NCBI GenBank assembly: GCA_008636105.1
Contig: VSDH01000010.1
Span: 1 to 64,000, forward strand
Reading direction: 5' to 3'
DNA length: 64,000 nucleotides
From: Candidatus Scalindua sediminis
GTDB lineage: Bacteria; Planctomycetota; Brocadiia; Brocadiales; Scalinduaceae
How positions within the stretch are numbered: the first letter of the stretch is position 1; every line of letters begins with the position of its first letter. A program made the position numbers and the translations under genes. The notes below the pieces were generated by a model. It was not told the DNA's origin. It ran no database searches and saw only the letters and a program-made list of their open reading frames with translations. This document shows, piece by piece, positions 2,671 through 46,276 of the stretch.

Positions 2671-3591
2671 ATGGTTTTATTTGATGATGAACGGTTGTTG
2701 CATACACCTGTTATGCTTGATGAGGTCATGAGCTTTATCAAGCCAGGTAAGGATGACATCATTGTAGACGCAACAATTGGTGCTGGAGGACATAGTCGTG
2801 AAATATTAAAAATGATAGGAACTGGTGGTCTCCTGATAGGAATAGATAAGGATGCCGAGATACTTAAGATAGCAAGCAAAAATCTATCAAAGATAAGCAA
2901 ATCTTTTAAACTGTATCATGCTGACTATGTGGATTTAAGTGCTATATTGAATGAATTAAAAATCAGTAGGATTAATGGTATTCTTCTTGATCTTGGAGTT
3001 TCATCTATGCAACTAAATTCCGAGGAACGCGGCTTTAGTTTTATCAGGGAAGGTCCTTTAGACATGAGAATGGATAGATCAAAGGGTATTACCGCTGAAG
3101 ATCTACTAAAAAGACTTCCTGAAAAGGAGATGGAAGAAATTTTTTGGAGATACGGCGAGGAAAGACGGTCTAGAAGCATTTCTAAGGCTATTTCTCGAGA
3201 AAGGAGAAAAGGAGAAGGCATAAAAACAACGACTCAGTTAGCAAAGATTATCGAAAGAGCTGTATACACACCGAAAAAACATACGAAAAGAAGGAAAATT
3301 CATCCCGCTACCCGAGTATTCCAGGCCCTGAGAATAGTTATAAATGATGAACTGAAAAGTCTGGAATATTTTTTAAATAATGCTCATGAGTTTCTGTTAA
3401 GTGGTTCAAGGATTGTTGTAATATCATTTCATTCTCTTGAGGACCGTTTAGCCAAGAATGCATTTCGTAAAGGTAAAAACACATCAACTCTGAAAATTTT
3501 AACAAAGAAACCATTAAGGCCCCTTGAGTCAGAAATAAAGAAGAATATCAGATGTAGAAGTGCGAAACTTCGAGCAGCAGAAAGGACATAA
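2671..3591 (+). CDS. rsmH: 16S rRNA (cytosine1402-N4)-methyltransferase
   Basis: The protein is 306 residues, typical of RsmH/MraW. It methylates N4 of C1402 in the decoding centre of 16S rRNA. HTPVMLDEV at the N-terminus, the SAM-binding DATIGAGGHS near residue 30, GILLDLGVSS, MRMD, RVFQALRIVINDE and SFHSLEDR are all present and in order. It lies second in the dcw cluster, 10 bases after mraZ and 3 bases before ftsL, so co-transcription is near certain. Confidence 0.96.
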   Translation: MVLFDDERLLHTPVMLDEVMSFIKPGKDDIIVDATIGAGGHSREILKMIGTGGLLIGIDKDAEILKIASKNLSKISKSFKLYHADYVDLSAILNELKISRINGILLDLGVSSMQLNSEERGFSFIREGPLDMRMDRSKGITAEDLLKRLPEKEMEEIFWRYGEERRSRSISKAISRERRKGEGIKTTTQLAKIIERAVYTPKKHTKRRKIHPATRVFQALRIVINDELKSLEYFLNNAHEFLLSGSRIVVISFHSLEDRLAKNAFRKGKNTSTLKILTKKPLRPLESEIKKNIRCRSAKLRAAERT

Positions 3592-3903: not shown

Positions 3904-4415
3904 AGCGTAAGCTATATATTTTAAATATGCTAAACCACAAGTTACATGATTTAAATAATATAATAAAGTCAGCGTTGATATTTATGGAGTATAGAATAAA
4001 AACTGAGCATGTATCTTTGCGGAAAAAGTTTACACCAAACATACCCAAGGTACAGGTCAATGCCGATGATATTTTCCTGGTAATTGTAAATCTTTTGACC
4101 AATGCCTTTGATAGTATGCCGAAGGGTGGAAAATTACTGATTGAATCAAAATGCTATAAGGGACGTGATACCTGTGTGCAATTTTCAATATCAGATACGG
4201 GATGCGGAATTGAAAAAAATGAAATGGATAAGATATTTGAGCCCTTTTTTACAATGAAGGCTGATGGAGAAGGAAATGGAAATGGCCTAGGGCTTACTAT
4301 ATGCCAAACGATTATAGAAAACCACAATGGAAAGATTAAAGTGGTGAGTTCATTAGGAGAAGGAACGACTTTTACTGTATGCTTCCCTGCAAGGCAAATA
4401 ATAATGCTAAATTAA
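3900..4415 (+). CDS. Stand-alone HATPase domain (histidine-kinase-like, no phospho-acceptor domain)
   Basis: This 171-residue protein corresponds to the C-terminal catalytic half of a histidine kinase. The N box (NLLTNAFDSMPKGG), G1 box (DTGCGI), F box (FEPFFTMK) and G2 box (GNGLGLTIC) are intact. The HisKA dimerisation and phospho-acceptor helix with its HExxN motif is absent; the protein begins where a DHp-CA linker would. The start is a TTG overlapping the ftsL stop. An intact ATP site without an acceptor suggests an anti-sigma-like, Spo0B-like or split kinase, or a decayed kinase. No such gene sits between ftsL and ftsI in model bacteria. Confidence 0.8.
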   Translation: MKRKLYILNMLNHKLHDLNNIIKSALIFMEYRIKTEHVSLRKKFTPNIPKVQVNADDIFLVIVNLLTNAFDSMPKGGKLLIESKCYKGRDTCVQFSISDTGCGIEKNEMDKIFEPFFTMKADGEGNGNGLGLTICQTIIENHNGKIKVVSSLGEGTTFTVCFPARQIIMLN

Positions 4416-39437: not shown

Positions 39438-40559
39438 ATGAAAATTGGCAGAAATCAACCTTGTTGGTGCGGTTCAGGAAAGAAATTAAAAAAATGCCAT
39501 TTGAATCGCAAAGAACAAGAAGAAATAAAACCATGGGAGGCAGCGCAAAACCTAAGAAGAGCTTTTGGGGCTAAATATTGCTCTGTCCCTGACAATCTAA
39601 AAGCTGAGTGCAAGGGGAACATCGTCAGAGCGCATACAGTCTCAAAAAGCATGAATTTGAAAAAAATTCAAAGGAACGGACATATATATGCCTTTATCCC
39701 TAGTTTCGAAAATTTAACAAAAAATAACGGAGTATTACATCCAGAGCTTTATGGCATCAATAAAGCATCAACCTTTACTGGGTTTTGTGCTCAACATGAC
39801 AAAGTAATATTTTCTCCACTTGAAGATAAAGAATTTGTTGGTAGCAAAGATCAATGCTTCCTGCTGGCATATAGAGCTCAAGCCAGAGAATATTTTACAA
39901 AAAAAAGTTCTGCAAACCTAATGGACTTTATGAAGCAGGCCGACCGAGGGAAAAGCCCTCTTGATCAACAAGACATCCAAAGTATGGTTTTTCATCACTC
40001 GCTTGGTGTTGATGCAGGAATGAGGGATGTAACAATTTATAAGAACAAATTGGATACAATTTTAAATACAAAAAACTTCAACAATATTAATGCGTTTATA
40101 ATAAATTTCCAAAAAATACCTTCAGTGTTTTGCAGTGCTGGGATTTTCCCAGAGTGTGACTTCCAAGGCAATCAATTACAAGATTTATTCGACCTAGAAA
40201 CAACTCCTGACTTGCTTACTTTTTCGACCATAGCGACAAAAAATGGTGGGGCAGTTGTCTTTTCCTGGCTGAACGATGATGACAGCAAAGGGAATTGCGA
40301 AAAATTTATAAACAGTCTCAAGACGGTAGCTCCTGAGAATATCACCAGTTCTTTAATAAGATTTTTTTTCGAATTTTGCGAAAATGTTATCATGGAACCG
40401 ACTTGGTGGGAATCGCTGGACAAACCGAAACACGAGAGTTTAGTGAACCGTCTTGCCAATGCTGCTTCCCTTTTGGAGGAAAGACAAGCAGACTGTTTAT
40501 GTACTGACAACCTAACTCTCGATGACTGGGAGTTAAGTGGAATTCAAGAAATAAAGTAA
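39438..40559 (+). CDS. Cassette 6 protein with N-terminal SEC-C zinc motif, otherwise unknown
   Basis: This 373-residue protein starts with a SEC-C metal-binding motif (RNQPCWCGSGKKLKKCH; C9, C11, C20, H21), as at the C-terminus of SecA and in many stand-alone proteins. The remainder (30-373) is not recognised; CVPDNLKAEC-like and FCAQHDK segments suggest further cysteine/histidine sites. No membrane segment. The Shine-Dalgarno is weak. It is the last cassette; its stop is five bases before attC6. Confidence 0.8.
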   Translation: MKIGRNQPCWCGSGKKLKKCHLNRKEQEEIKPWEAAQNLRRAFGAKYCSVPDNLKAECKGNIVRAHTVSKSMNLKKIQRNGHIYAFIPSFENLTKNNGVLHPELYGINKASTFTGFCAQHDKVIFSPLEDKEFVGSKDQCFLLAYRAQAREYFTKKSSANLMDFMKQADRGKSPLDQQDIQSMVFHHSLGVDAGMRDVTIYKNKLDTILNTKNFNNINAFIINFQKIPSVFCSAGIFPECDFQGNQLQDLFDLETTPDLLTFSTIATKNGGAVVFSWLNDDDSKGNCEKFINSLKTVAPENITSSLIRFFFEFCENVIMEPTWWESLDKPKHESLVNRLANAASLLEERQADCLCTDNLTLDDWELSGIQEIK

Positions 40560-41877: not shown

Positions 41878-42852
41878 CTAATCAAATAAAGCATCCACAA
41901 AATTATCTGCGTCAAATTCCTGAATATCTTCTGCGCTTTCACCAATACCAATAAATTTTACCGGTATATCTATTTCATTGCGCATACCTAAAATTATGCC
42001 ACCCTTAGCAGTTCCATCAAGTTTTGACAAAAATATTCCTGTAATGTTAACTGCACGGTTGAATAGTTTTGCTTGTGAAACAGCATTTTGCCCCGTAGTA
42101 GCATCCAGAACCATTAGCACTTCATGTGGTGCATTTTCAATCTTTTTTGATATTACTCGCTTAATCTTTGACAATTCGTTCATCAAATTATCATTAGTAT
42201 GCAGACGCCCTGCAGTATCAACTATCAAAACATCTATTCCTCTACTTAAACTAGCTTCAAGCGCGTCAAAAGTGACCGCAGCAGGGTCAGCACCTGTCTG
42301 ATGTTTTACTATATCGGCTCCAATCCTTTTACTCCATATATCTAATTGTTCCACAGCAGCAGCTCGGAAGGTATCACTTGCCGATAGCATAACTTTCTTG
42401 CCTTGTTTTATAAAGAAATCGGCAAGTTTTGCAATTGAAGTAGTCTTGCCTGAGCCGTTAACACCTGCAACCATAATCACCGTTGGTGGGACCGGTGCCG
42501 TTATTAATGAAACATCCCACGCTTTAAGTTCTTGTTTAAGCTTATCCTTTAAGAAATCGTAAATATTGGATGTGTCCTCAATTTCTTTAGATTTCCAGGC
42601 ATCTCTTACATCTTGTATAATCTTTGTTGCCGGACCAACACCCATATCCGATTCCAGTAATATAGTCTCTAACTCCTCTAGTATATCCTCATCTATCTTT
42701 CTTCTGAATGATAATAAGTCTTTGAAGCGTGAAGTTATTTTAGTACGTGTTTTTTCTAAGCCTTTCTTTAATTTTTGAAAGGAAAGCCATGATTTATTTT
42801 CTATATCTTCTTGTGTGGATACCCCTGCATTCTTTTTTGAAAACCAGCCCAT
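41878..42852 (-). CDS. ftsY: Signal recognition particle receptor FtsY
   Basis: This 324-residue SRP GTPase has an NG domain with an N-terminal helical bundle (about 20-105), the P-loop GVNGSGKTTS, DTFRAAAVEQL, DTAGRLHTN and the TKLD equivalent SKLDGTAKGG. The acidic A domain is very short, as in many Gram-negative and planctomycete forms. It docks ribosome-SRP complexes at the membrane. It is preceded by the NusB-PHP gene (17-base gap) and followed by the DUF362 gene. Confidence 0.97.
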   Translation of the reverse strand: MGWFSKKNAGVSTQEDIENKSWLSFQKLKKGLEKTRTKITSRFKDLLSFRRKIDEDILEELETILLESDMGVGPATKIIQDVRDAWKSKEIEDTSNIYDFLKDKLKQELKAWDVSLITAPVPPTVIMVAGVNGSGKTTSIAKLADFFIKQGKKVMLSASDTFRAAAVEQLDIWSKRIGADIVKHQTGADPAAVTFDALEASLSRGIDVLIVDTAGRLHTNDNLMNELSKIKRVISKKIENAPHEVLMVLDATTGQNAVSQAKLFNRAVNITGIFLSKLDGTAKGGIILGMRNEIDIPVKFIGIGESAEDIQEFDADNFVDALFD

Positions 42853-42869
42853 AATTTCTCACTTTAATC

Positions 42870-44186
42870 CTACTTGTTACAACTTAACATACCAACCATA
42901 TTATCGTGTCTTTCCTTAATCTTTTCAACAATACCGTCATCTACCGTTATACCACCCAGCTTAATAAACGATCTTCTTTCACCATGATAGTCTGAACCAC
43001 CAGTAACTAAAAGATCATATTTCTTTGCCAATTGTAAATATCTTTCTATGTCATCTGGCAAATGTGTTGGGTAATAAACCTCGATCCCCTGTAAACCGTA
43101 TTCTACCATCTTGGGGATTAATTCATCTCTTTTTGTGGTGCCGGGGTGTGAATAAACAGAAATGCCACCTGAAGAATTTATAAGTTTTATGGCATCTGCT
43201 AACATTAATGTCATTTTGGGTACATAAGCAGGACACTTGTCAGCCAAATATCTTCGAAAGCTTTCCCGAATATTGCTGCAGTAACCTCTTTTGCACAAAG
43301 CCTCAGCCACATGCATTCTACCGGGTGAGCCTTTTCCCGCAATGTCAAAAACTTCTTGAGGATTTATGTTAACACCCAGATTGTTCAGTTTCTTTGTTAT
43401 CTTCTTTATTCGTTCTATTCTTTCGAGCCGCAACTCCGCCAGTTTTCCTAATAGTGCGCTATTTTTTATGTCTATAAAATAACCTAAAATATGAATATCT
43501 GCAGGACAATAATAGGAAGAAAGTTCTACGGCTGGGATGATATTTATGCCTTTTCTATTACAAAAGGTTTGTGCAATTTCGATAGCATCGATGCTATCAT
43601 GGTCAGTTATTGCAATTGTGTGAAGGTTGAGTCGCAGCGCTTCTTCAACTACCTCTTCCGGAGACGCGGTGCCGTCGGAATAATCTGTATGAATGTGTAA
43701 ATCACCACGCGAACGCTTTCCTATTTTTAAATTAACTTTTTCTTCCAAACCTGAGGTACCATCTTGATCCTCTTCGCCGTTCTTCACATAACGTGAATAT
43801 ACCTTATCCAGTACGCCATTTACGAACAAGCCGGATTTTTCAGTACTGTATTTCTTTGCTAAATCAATTGCTTCATTGATAGATACCTTGGGAGGAATAT
43901 CACTCATGTAGAGAAGTTCATAGCATGCCAACCTTAAGACATTTCTATCTATTACTGCCATCCTATGTAAATCCCAATTTTCGGAAATAGAAATTATCTT
44001 TTTGTCTATTTCTTTTATAGCCGGAAAGCAGCCTTTAACCAGCATTATGGCAAAATCGCTTATCTCAGCTTCTTTTGCCTGCTTTCTGCAAAAGGAATCT
44101 ATCTCCTTTATAATTTCATCCCCGCGAACCTCTAATTGATAAAGAGCTTGCAACGCAATCTCGCGAGACAGCGTTCTTTTCCGCAT
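42870..44186 (-). CDS. nusB: Fusion of NusB antitermination factor and PHP phosphoesterase/nuclease
   Basis: This is one open frame of 438 residues. Residues 1-135 are a complete NusB (SREIALQALYQLEVRG, MAVIDRNVLRLACYELLY, SINEAIDLAKKYSTEKSGLFVNGVLDKV). After a charged linker (136-160) a full PHP domain of the YciV/TrpH type follows (GDLHIHTDYSDGT at 161, AITDHDS at 192, PAVELSS, YSHPG, GGSDYHG). NusB binds boxA RNA in rRNA antitermination. YciV of E. coli (RNase AM) trims rRNA 5' ends. The fusion would put both activities in one chain; the role is inference. Confidence 0.92.
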   Translation of the reverse strand: MRKRTLSREIALQALYQLEVRGDEIIKEIDSFCRKQAKEAEISDFAIMLVKGCFPAIKEIDKKIISISENWDLHRMAVIDRNVLRLACYELLYMSDIPPKVSINEAIDLAKKYSTEKSGLFVNGVLDKVYSRYVKNGEEDQDGTSGLEEKVNLKIGKRSRGDLHIHTDYSDGTASPEEVVEEALRLNLHTIAITDHDSIDAIEIAQTFCNRKGINIIPAVELSSYYCPADIHILGYFIDIKNSALLGKLAELRLERIERIKKITKKLNNLGVNINPQEVFDIAGKGSPGRMHVAEALCKRGYCSNIRESFRRYLADKCPAYVPKMTLMLADAIKLINSSGGISVYSHPGTTKRDELIPKMVEYGLQGIEVYYPTHLPDDIERYLQLAKKYDLLVTGGSDYHGERRSFIKLGGITVDDGIVEKIKERHDNMVGMLSCNK

Positions 44187-44225: not shown

Positions 44226-44690
44226 TTATATCTTATCGAACAAGTTCACCATCTCCAGGGCAGCGAGTGCAGCTTCAGCACCTTTATTACCTCCTCTAGC
44301 ACCAGCTCTATCTATAGCTTGTTCCAATGTATCAGTAGCGATGACTCCATAAATCGTTGGAATGCCTGTTGAGAGTCCGACTTCAGTGATACCCCTGGCT
44401 GCTTCACTGGAGACATAATCGAAATGGGGTGTTTCACCACGTATTACTGCTCCCAGACAGATAATACCGTTGTATTTGGCATTTTTAGCTAATCTCAAGG
44501 CAGTAATTGGTATCTCACAAGCTCCTGGAACCCAAAACACATCAATATCGTTCTCCTTCGTACCATGTCTAACTAAACAATCCTGGGCTCCTTCTAGCAA
44601 TTTCTTTGTAATGAAATTGTTGAACCTGCTGACAATTATAGCAAAGGTTTTGCCCGTACCAATAAGATTGCCTTCAAATGATTTTGCCAT
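44226..44690 (-). CDS. ribH: 6,7-dimethyl-8-ribityllumazine synthase
   Basis: This 154-residue protein has the lumazine synthase hallmarks FNNFITKKLLEGA, PGACEIP, GAVIRGETPHFDYV and GVIATDTLEQA. It catalyses the penultimate step of riboflavin synthesis and usually assembles into pentamers or 60-mers. It is the first gene of the minus-strand run ribH, nusB-PHP, ftsY. ribH-nusB adjacency is common across bacteria. Confidence 0.97.
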   Translation of the reverse strand: MAKSFEGNLIGTGKTFAIIVSRFNNFITKKLLEGAQDCLVRHGTKENDIDVFWVPGACEIPITALRLAKNAKYNGIICLGAVIRGETPHFDYVSSEAARGITEVGLSTGIPTIYGVIATDTLEQAIDRAGARGGNKGAEAALAALEMVNLFDKI

Positions 44691-44947: not shown

Positions 44948-46276
44948 ATGGGAGAAGATAAAGAGGTCGAAGGGCAAAGGTTGCCTATAAGTGAACATCT
45001 CGAAGAGTTGAGAAGAAGGATTATAAATTCAATCCTTATTGTTATTGGATTCTTCTTTATCAGCTGGTTTTTTAAATCAAATATACTGGACATCATGAAA
45101 CGGCCACATGACCTTGCTATGGAAAATCTGGGATTATCACAATCACTCCAGGTGTTGAGTTATCAAGAAGGGTTTTACGCTTACATAAAGCTATGTTTAA
45201 TAACAGCCATCTTTATGGGATATCCTGTAATTGCACATCAAATCTGGAAATTTGTAGAAGCTGGTTTATATAAGAAGGAGCGCACGTATGTAAAAATATT
45301 TGCCCCGATTTCCTTCATGGCGTTCATAATAGGTGTATTATTTGGATACTTTTTCCTGATACCCTTTGGCCTTCAATTCTTGATAAGGATACTGGGAGCA
45401 GAGATAGAGCCTATTATTACGATGAGTCAATATATCAATCTTGTTACCCTGTTGACGCTTGCCCTGGGTATTGTGTTTCAACTCCCACTCGTAATGTTAT
45501 TCATATCTAAGATTGGAATATTTAAGGCCGAAGATTTCGTTAAATGGCGTATGCATGCCGTCCTTATTATGTTTATTCTTGCAGCCATAATAACCCCTCC
45601 GGATCCATTTACACAAGTTATGACTGCCTTGCCGATGATGGCTCTTTATGAAGTGGGCATTCTTGCAATAAGACCGACAAAGAAAGCGATTATGCGATTT
45701 GGTATCCTATTAGGTTCCGGCACTTTATTAATATATATAGTTTTCCTGACATTTACACTTCCACCAAAGGCAGAGTTCATAAACACATCAGGCATTGTCA
45801 AGATTCTTCCGGCCGCAAGCACAAAATGGATGGCGGTGACACCTGAGTCCAGAATACATAACGGCGCCACACTGGAAACAGGCAAAAGCAGTAAGGCCTC
45901 CTTCCTCCTGAAGGATGGTACTTATATTATAATGGACGTGGATACGGTAATTAAGCTTGTGGAAAAGAGAAAAATCGCTCTCTTAAAGGGGCAAATACTT
46001 GTGACCATAAAGGCAGACGATGGCCCTTTTTCGATAACGGCAAATGACAGCATCATCACTGCAAATGACGGCAATATTGACGTAAAGATATTGGGATACA
46101 CAGTCTTGATTACAGTGGCGGAAGGTGTAGCAACAGTTGTCTCGGATGGAGAGGAGAAGAAGGTACTTGCAGGAAGGCAGCTAAAGGTCGTAACCGGTGG
46201 CGAACCCGTAAACGTGGATGGTGTGACAAAATGGTCAAAGGAGATGCGAAAGTTGATAAAGGAGAAAACAAGATAA
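44948..46276 (+). CDS. tatC: Twin-arginine translocase TatC with C-terminal FecR-like domain
   Basis: This is a 442-residue protein. Residues 1-250 are TatC: EHLEELRRR, FVEAGLYKKER with the conserved glutamate, and six membrane segments. An extra seventh helix (251-271) follows, then about 165 residues of FecR-like beta repeats (PESRIHNGATLETG, ASFLLKDGTYIIM, KIALLKGQI, VAEGVATVV). The seventh helix would place the FecR-like part outside the cytoplasm. TatC binds twin-arginine signals for export of folded proteins such as cofactor enzymes. No tatA or tatB is adjacent. Confidence 0.92.
   Translation: MGEDKEVEGQRLPISEHLEELRRRIINSILIVIGFFFISWFFKSNILDIMKRPHDLAMENLGLSQSLQVLSYQEGFYAYIKLCLITAIFMGYPVIAHQIWKFVEAGLYKKERTYVKIFAPISFMAFIIGVLFGYFFLIPFGLQFLIRILGAEIEPIITMSQYINLVTLLTLALGIVFQLPLVMLFISKIGIFKAEDFVKWRMHAVLIMFILAAIITPPDPFTQVMTALPMMALYEVGILAIRPTKKAIMRFGILLGSGTLLIYIVFLTFTLPPKAEFINTSGIVKILPAASTKWMAVTPESRIHNGATLETGKSSKASFLLKDGTYIIMDVDTVIKLVEKRKIALLKGQILVTIKADDGPFSITANDSIITANDGNIDVKILGYTVLITVAEGVATVVSDGEEKKVLAGRQLKVVTGGEPVNVDGVTKWSKEMRKLIKEKTR

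Follow-up and report, generated by a model that had tools for sequence, protein, structure and literature searches.

A NusB-PHP fusion protein in Candidatus Scalindua sediminis and its class, and its possible role in coupling rRNA antitermination with 5' end trimming

One open reading frame of the anammox bacterium Candidatus Scalindua sediminis joins NusB, which together with S10 binds boxA in the rRNA antitermination complex (PMC10250234, PMC6614801), to a phosphoesterase domain of the PHP type. The locus raises two questions: are these two genes really one, and what could a single polypeptide with both domains do? We have analyzed a window of 64,000 nucleotides (positions 1 to 64,000 of contig VSDH01000010.1). 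The nusB::php fusion gene occupies 42870..44186 on the minus strand, with its ATG at 44186, its stop at 42870 and no break along 438 codons, which bears out, at the same coordinates, the uninterrupted frame of the initial annotation. All its parts lie on the minus strand. The NusB domain (residues 1 to approximately 133; 43788..44186) is recognized by Pfam (PF01029), the NCBIfam nusB model and Foldseek. It is followed by a linker of about 25 amino acids (residues 137–158; 43713..43778) that is predicted to be disordered, with pLDDT below 50, and by a COG0613-type PHP phosphoesterase domain (residues 160–438, core around 160–430; 42873..43709) identified by PF02811, its active-site residues and its fold. 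The AlphaFold2 model has the same organization, two confident domains (mean pLDDT of 84) with the disordered stretch 137–158 between them.

The gene sits in an operon with the order ribH-[nusB::php]-ftsY, all on the minus strand. Upstream is the lumazine synthase gene ribH (44226..44690, PF00885), separated from the fusion by 39 nt, and downstream is ftsY (41878..42852, TIGR00064, 358.5 bits) after a gap of 17 nt, an arrangement that is alike in the relatives. Other genes of the neighborhood were also examined. A 442-amino-acid frame at 44948-46276 of the plus strand combines TatC with a C-terminal FecR domain, and a near-full-length match to it recurs beside ribH in the Scalindua relatives and at one further locus (L078). 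The product of a minus-strand gene at 46449-47426 matches CLP1_P (141 bits), a domain of the Clp1/Nol9-type polynucleotide kinase family, which is unusual in a bacterium; it was discarded as a partner of the fusion, as it was not found in the flanks of the Scalindua relatives. Finally, a protein of 373 amino acids (39438-40559, plus strand) has an N-terminal SEC-C metal-binding motif as its only recognized domain.

The nearest named relatives of the fusion belong to Ca. Scalindua rubra and other Scalindua and Brocadiaceae assemblies, at 66–76% identity. Leaving aside six genomes without a match and one whose gene is truncated at the end of a contig, 68 genomes of the host's class have both NusB and PHP, and 63 of them carry the fusion. 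A script confirmed that the frame is continuous in 45 fused genes; the stops reported inside a few matches are located at the C-terminal end. That an assembly or frame error joined two genes might be suspected from the separate genes of some relatives, but the single open frame recurs in the 63 genomes, including single-contig assemblies and independently deposited Ca. Scalindua and Brocadiaceae ones, and it contains no conserved internal start, so we rejected a merger of this kind as hardly credible. The fusion is real. Nor did we find support for a free PHP protein translated from an internal start, since the start codons with a Shine-Dalgarno-like motif present inside 15 of the 45 fused genes are at non-conserved places, mostly within NusB or the HxH motif.

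NusB and PHP are separate in the other five genomes of the class (G019, G021, G062, G063 and G064). In two of these (G062 and G063), and in eight loci from other Planctomycetota families, nusB and php are adjacent genes with their order kept, and in five unfused loci the start of php overlaps the stop of nusB by 4 nt (ATGA or TTGA). In four other Planctomycetota loci php adjoins ftsY without nusB. Two of the eight loci, in G180 and G249, resembled a full-length fusion outside the class and were rejected as such, because a stop codon at the domain junction makes them separate genes in one frame. Relatives with two genes had been proposed as a refutation of the fusion. Such relatives do exist, both beyond the fused lineage and, within it, in one family. 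Beyond the lineage, however, the two genes are neighbors in the order of the fusion, an arrangement that reveals a route to the fusion and does not refute it. The 4-nt overlaps would also provide a one-step route for the strongest rival explanation of this architecture, a nearly neutral operon fusion by a small indel across the overlap, in which the halves would act independently and the PHP substrate would be pAp, nucleoside 3',5'-bisphosphates or short 5'-phosphorylated oligonucleotides. We consider this quite possible. It fits less well with a fusion that has been kept across most of the class in spite of the fast change of the linker, which varies in sequence and length (8–70 amino acids) among relatives, or with php adjoining nusB in several Planctomycetota families. 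Such conserved gene order may, for its part, mirror operon inheritance and not function.

A tree of RibH and FtsY requires two changes of fusion state, with the family f4 nested in the fused order, and the PHP tree likewise nests f4 in the fused group. The most parsimonious history would be a single fusion close to the base of the class, followed by a split in f4; depending on the branch order at this base, there may instead have been two fusions. We infer that the fusion is old. In G021, a member of f4, the split is a rearrangement, with ribH-nusB on one contig and php-ftsY on another, neither of them near a contig end. This family having separated the genes and kept PHP is what a nearly neutral fusion would allow, and the separation counts against a bifunctional protein. 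The free php frame of f4 (L071, about 2985-3010, in G021; L076, about 3995-4030, in G019) opens just before the HxH motif. Neither genome has an in-frame ATG, GTG or TTG ahead of this motif in that frame, and both have ATT at matching places, so that translation must begin at an unusual codon or in some other way.

The NusB half is complete, as had been proposed. The Pfam match covers residues 7–130 (124.9 bits against a cutoff of 23.1), and the NCBIfam nusB model is passed with 137.4 against a curated cutoff of 88.35, residues 4–131 aligning to positions 2–129 of the 131 of the model. Foldseek matches this half to NusB structures, among them complexes of NusB, NusE and boxA, while RsmB models give a weak alignment. 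Since the fusion protein is the sole NusB Pfam match of the genome (94% complete), its NusB half would have to serve antitermination. A possible target is present in the same genome, where the rRNA operon has the order 16S-tRNA-tRNA-23S and its leader contains the boxA CGTTCTTTGAAAA about 130 nt before the 16S. A boxA-like site without mismatches was found in 11 of 28 leaders of the class (0.11 in dinucleotide shuffles) and with at most one mismatch in 23 (2.5 in the shuffles), a contrast that is somewhat optimistic given that the pattern was set after viewing some leaders and that the leaders of close relatives are non-independent.

In the PHP half, the Pfam match covers residues 162-223 (49.1 bits against a cutoff of 26.4), and the best fold match by Foldseek is the RNase AM of Vibrio cholerae (9etk), BAD_1165 and CV1693 being also among the nearest. 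Aligned to the RNase AM of Escherichia coli, the metal ligands H164, D171, H196, E221, H232, H347, D399 and H401 correspond to His13, Asp20, His45, Glu72, His83, His198, Asp255 and His257, and the residues R256, R259, R290 and F310 of the pocket for the 5'-phosphate and base to Arg107, Arg110, Arg141 and Phe161. The eight ligands and the four pocket residues are invariant in all 45 fused proteins aligned. Judging from these alignments the PHP half is a COG0613-type phosphoesterase with a trinuclear metal site, apparently catalytically intact, in agreement with the complete, metal-binding PHP domain described initially. Arg201 is different. In RNase AM this residue contacts a sulfate at the position of the scissile phosphate (PMC9410882, as for the other residue roles), and it is not conserved here, being Thr350 in the fusion protein and mostly Leu or Val in its relatives (alignment of the 45 fused proteins).

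The readings divide on the substrate that this site would accept. The 5'-phosphate pocket is common to RNase AM and CV1693 (PMC9410882), so that the expected ligand is either a nucleotide or an RNA end with a 5'-phosphate, neither of them being singled out. Over residues 161–413 both dedicated models remain below their curated cutoffs, RNase Rnm (NF047791) with 162.6 bits against 375 and nucleoside-bisphosphatase (NF041577) with 182.6 against 400. The slightly higher score of the latter and the pocket identical to that of CV1693 favor the small-nucleotide enzyme of a nearly neutral fusion, for which the missing Arg201 leaves room; against it speaks that short RNA has an NrnA-like protein of its own in the genome (116.4 bits, under its curated cutoff). 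In the PHP tree, Rnm, 9etk and CV1693 form a clade of their own (support 100/99), with the fusion PHP outside. The description as a YciV/RNase AM-type domain is thus right at the level of family (fold, ligands and pocket) but not of orthologue, because of the separate clade, the score under the cutoff and the loss of Arg201. Four PHP matches were detected in the genome. The other three are a frame of DnaE size (1154 amino acids, assigned by length alone), a HisJ-like and a CehA/McbA-like protein, so that the fusion holds the only COG0613-type PHP found.

The position beside ribH suggests two further explanations. The PHP half could work together with RibH in riboflavin synthesis, as the phosphatase of the pyrimidine phosphate step. 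We find this highly improbable, as in five broken operons php stays with ftsY and not with ribH, and the conserved 5'-nucleotide pocket suits RNA or nucleotides. Alternatively, the PHP half might exert quality control at the antitermination complex, removing or degrading faulty or specially capped (e.g., FAD-capped) transcripts. RNase AM does have deFADding and processive 5'-3' activities (PMC9410882), and ribH is a gene of flavin biosynthesis, but ribH and nusB are adjacent in E. coli too, which says little about flavins, and no feature pointing to FAD caps in particular turned up. This role is improbable, if less so than the one in riboflavin synthesis.

The ribonuclease set of the genome is relevant here. 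According to PMC9757072, no bacterial 5'-3' exoribonucleases are known besides RNase J1 and RNase AM; the RNase AM of E. coli has been described as a trimmer of rRNA intermediates (PMC9848016). We found no match to RNase J in this genome (control genomes do match), nor any above the curated cutoff in 199 Planctomycetota genomes, which gave weak or partial matches only. RNase E/G is present. With no RNase J found and RNase E/G at hand, the need for an AM-like 5'-3' trimmer is plausible, and together with the boxA of the leader these data fit a coupled synthesis and maturation of rRNA. We propose, at about even odds (roughly 0.5), that the fusion is a bifunctional protein of rRNA biogenesis, a boxA-anchored NusB with a tethered, 5'-phosphate-dependent 5'-3' PHP trimmer. 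The NusB half and S10 (NusE) would bind the boxA of the newly made rRNA leader and enter the antitermination complex, and the flexible linker would hold the PHP half near the rRNA 5' ends. This half, as a trinuclear-metal, 5'-phosphate-dependent 5'-3' phosphodiesterase, would trim the monophosphorylated ends produced by RNase III and RNase E/G cuts, the job of RNase AM in E. coli.

In favor of the bifunctional protein we count the conservation of the fusion in the class, the invariant site, the adjacency of nusB and php, the fold match to RNase AM, boxA and the ribonuclease set; the low Rnm score, the missing Arg201, the separate clade and the pocket common with CV1693 weigh, like the split in f4, on the other side. 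We infer the exonuclease activity, the rRNA substrate, the assembly into the antitermination complex, the coupling in time or space and the benefit of the fusion. That antitermination and the 5' trimming of rRNA are coupled is a well-motivated hypothesis, and that one boxA-anchored polypeptide performs both antitermination and 5' maturation in anammox bacteria and the rest of their class is put forward tentatively, with slightly less confidence than the bifunctional protein itself. If correct, the fusion would name a candidate finisher of rRNA 5' ends in a phylum where RNase J was not found, the link of PHP to NusB would predict the site of action of the enzyme (boxA), and a role in RNA metabolism would be suggested for the PHP proteins encoded beside nusB in other Planctomycetota.

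No description of a NusB-PHP fusion was found in the literature searched, to which our statement of novelty is confined and where the same impression of the initial annotation holds. Both halves belong to known families and a NusB-like domain joined to an rRNA enzyme has a precedent in RsmB, so that the novelty lies in how known domains are combined. The E. coli and V. cholerae RNase AM (Rnm, YciV) has in common with the fusion the PHP fold, the eight ligands and the Arg107/Arg110/Arg141/Phe161 pocket, but it is free-standing and has Arg201, which the fusion PHP lacks together with part of the loop that follows, shorter here. The nucleoside 3',5'-bisphosphate phosphatase CV1693 (2yb1) and BAD_1165 (3o0f) have the same COG0613 fold and pocket; they are also free-standing, whereas the fusion PHP is under the NF041577 cutoff and in a different clade from CV1693. 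The NusB proteins of E. coli, Thermotoga maritima and Aquifex aeolicus are alike in fold and in the ribH-nusB gene order, and the curated model is passed here, but unlike the fusion they are without a C-terminal enzyme. In RsmB a NusB-like domain is followed by a 16S rRNA methyltransferase. In both proteins, then, such a domain precedes an enzyme, an rRNA-acting methyltransferase in RsmB and a PHP hydrolase in the fusion, which differs from RsmB in that its NusB half is the only NusB of the genome.
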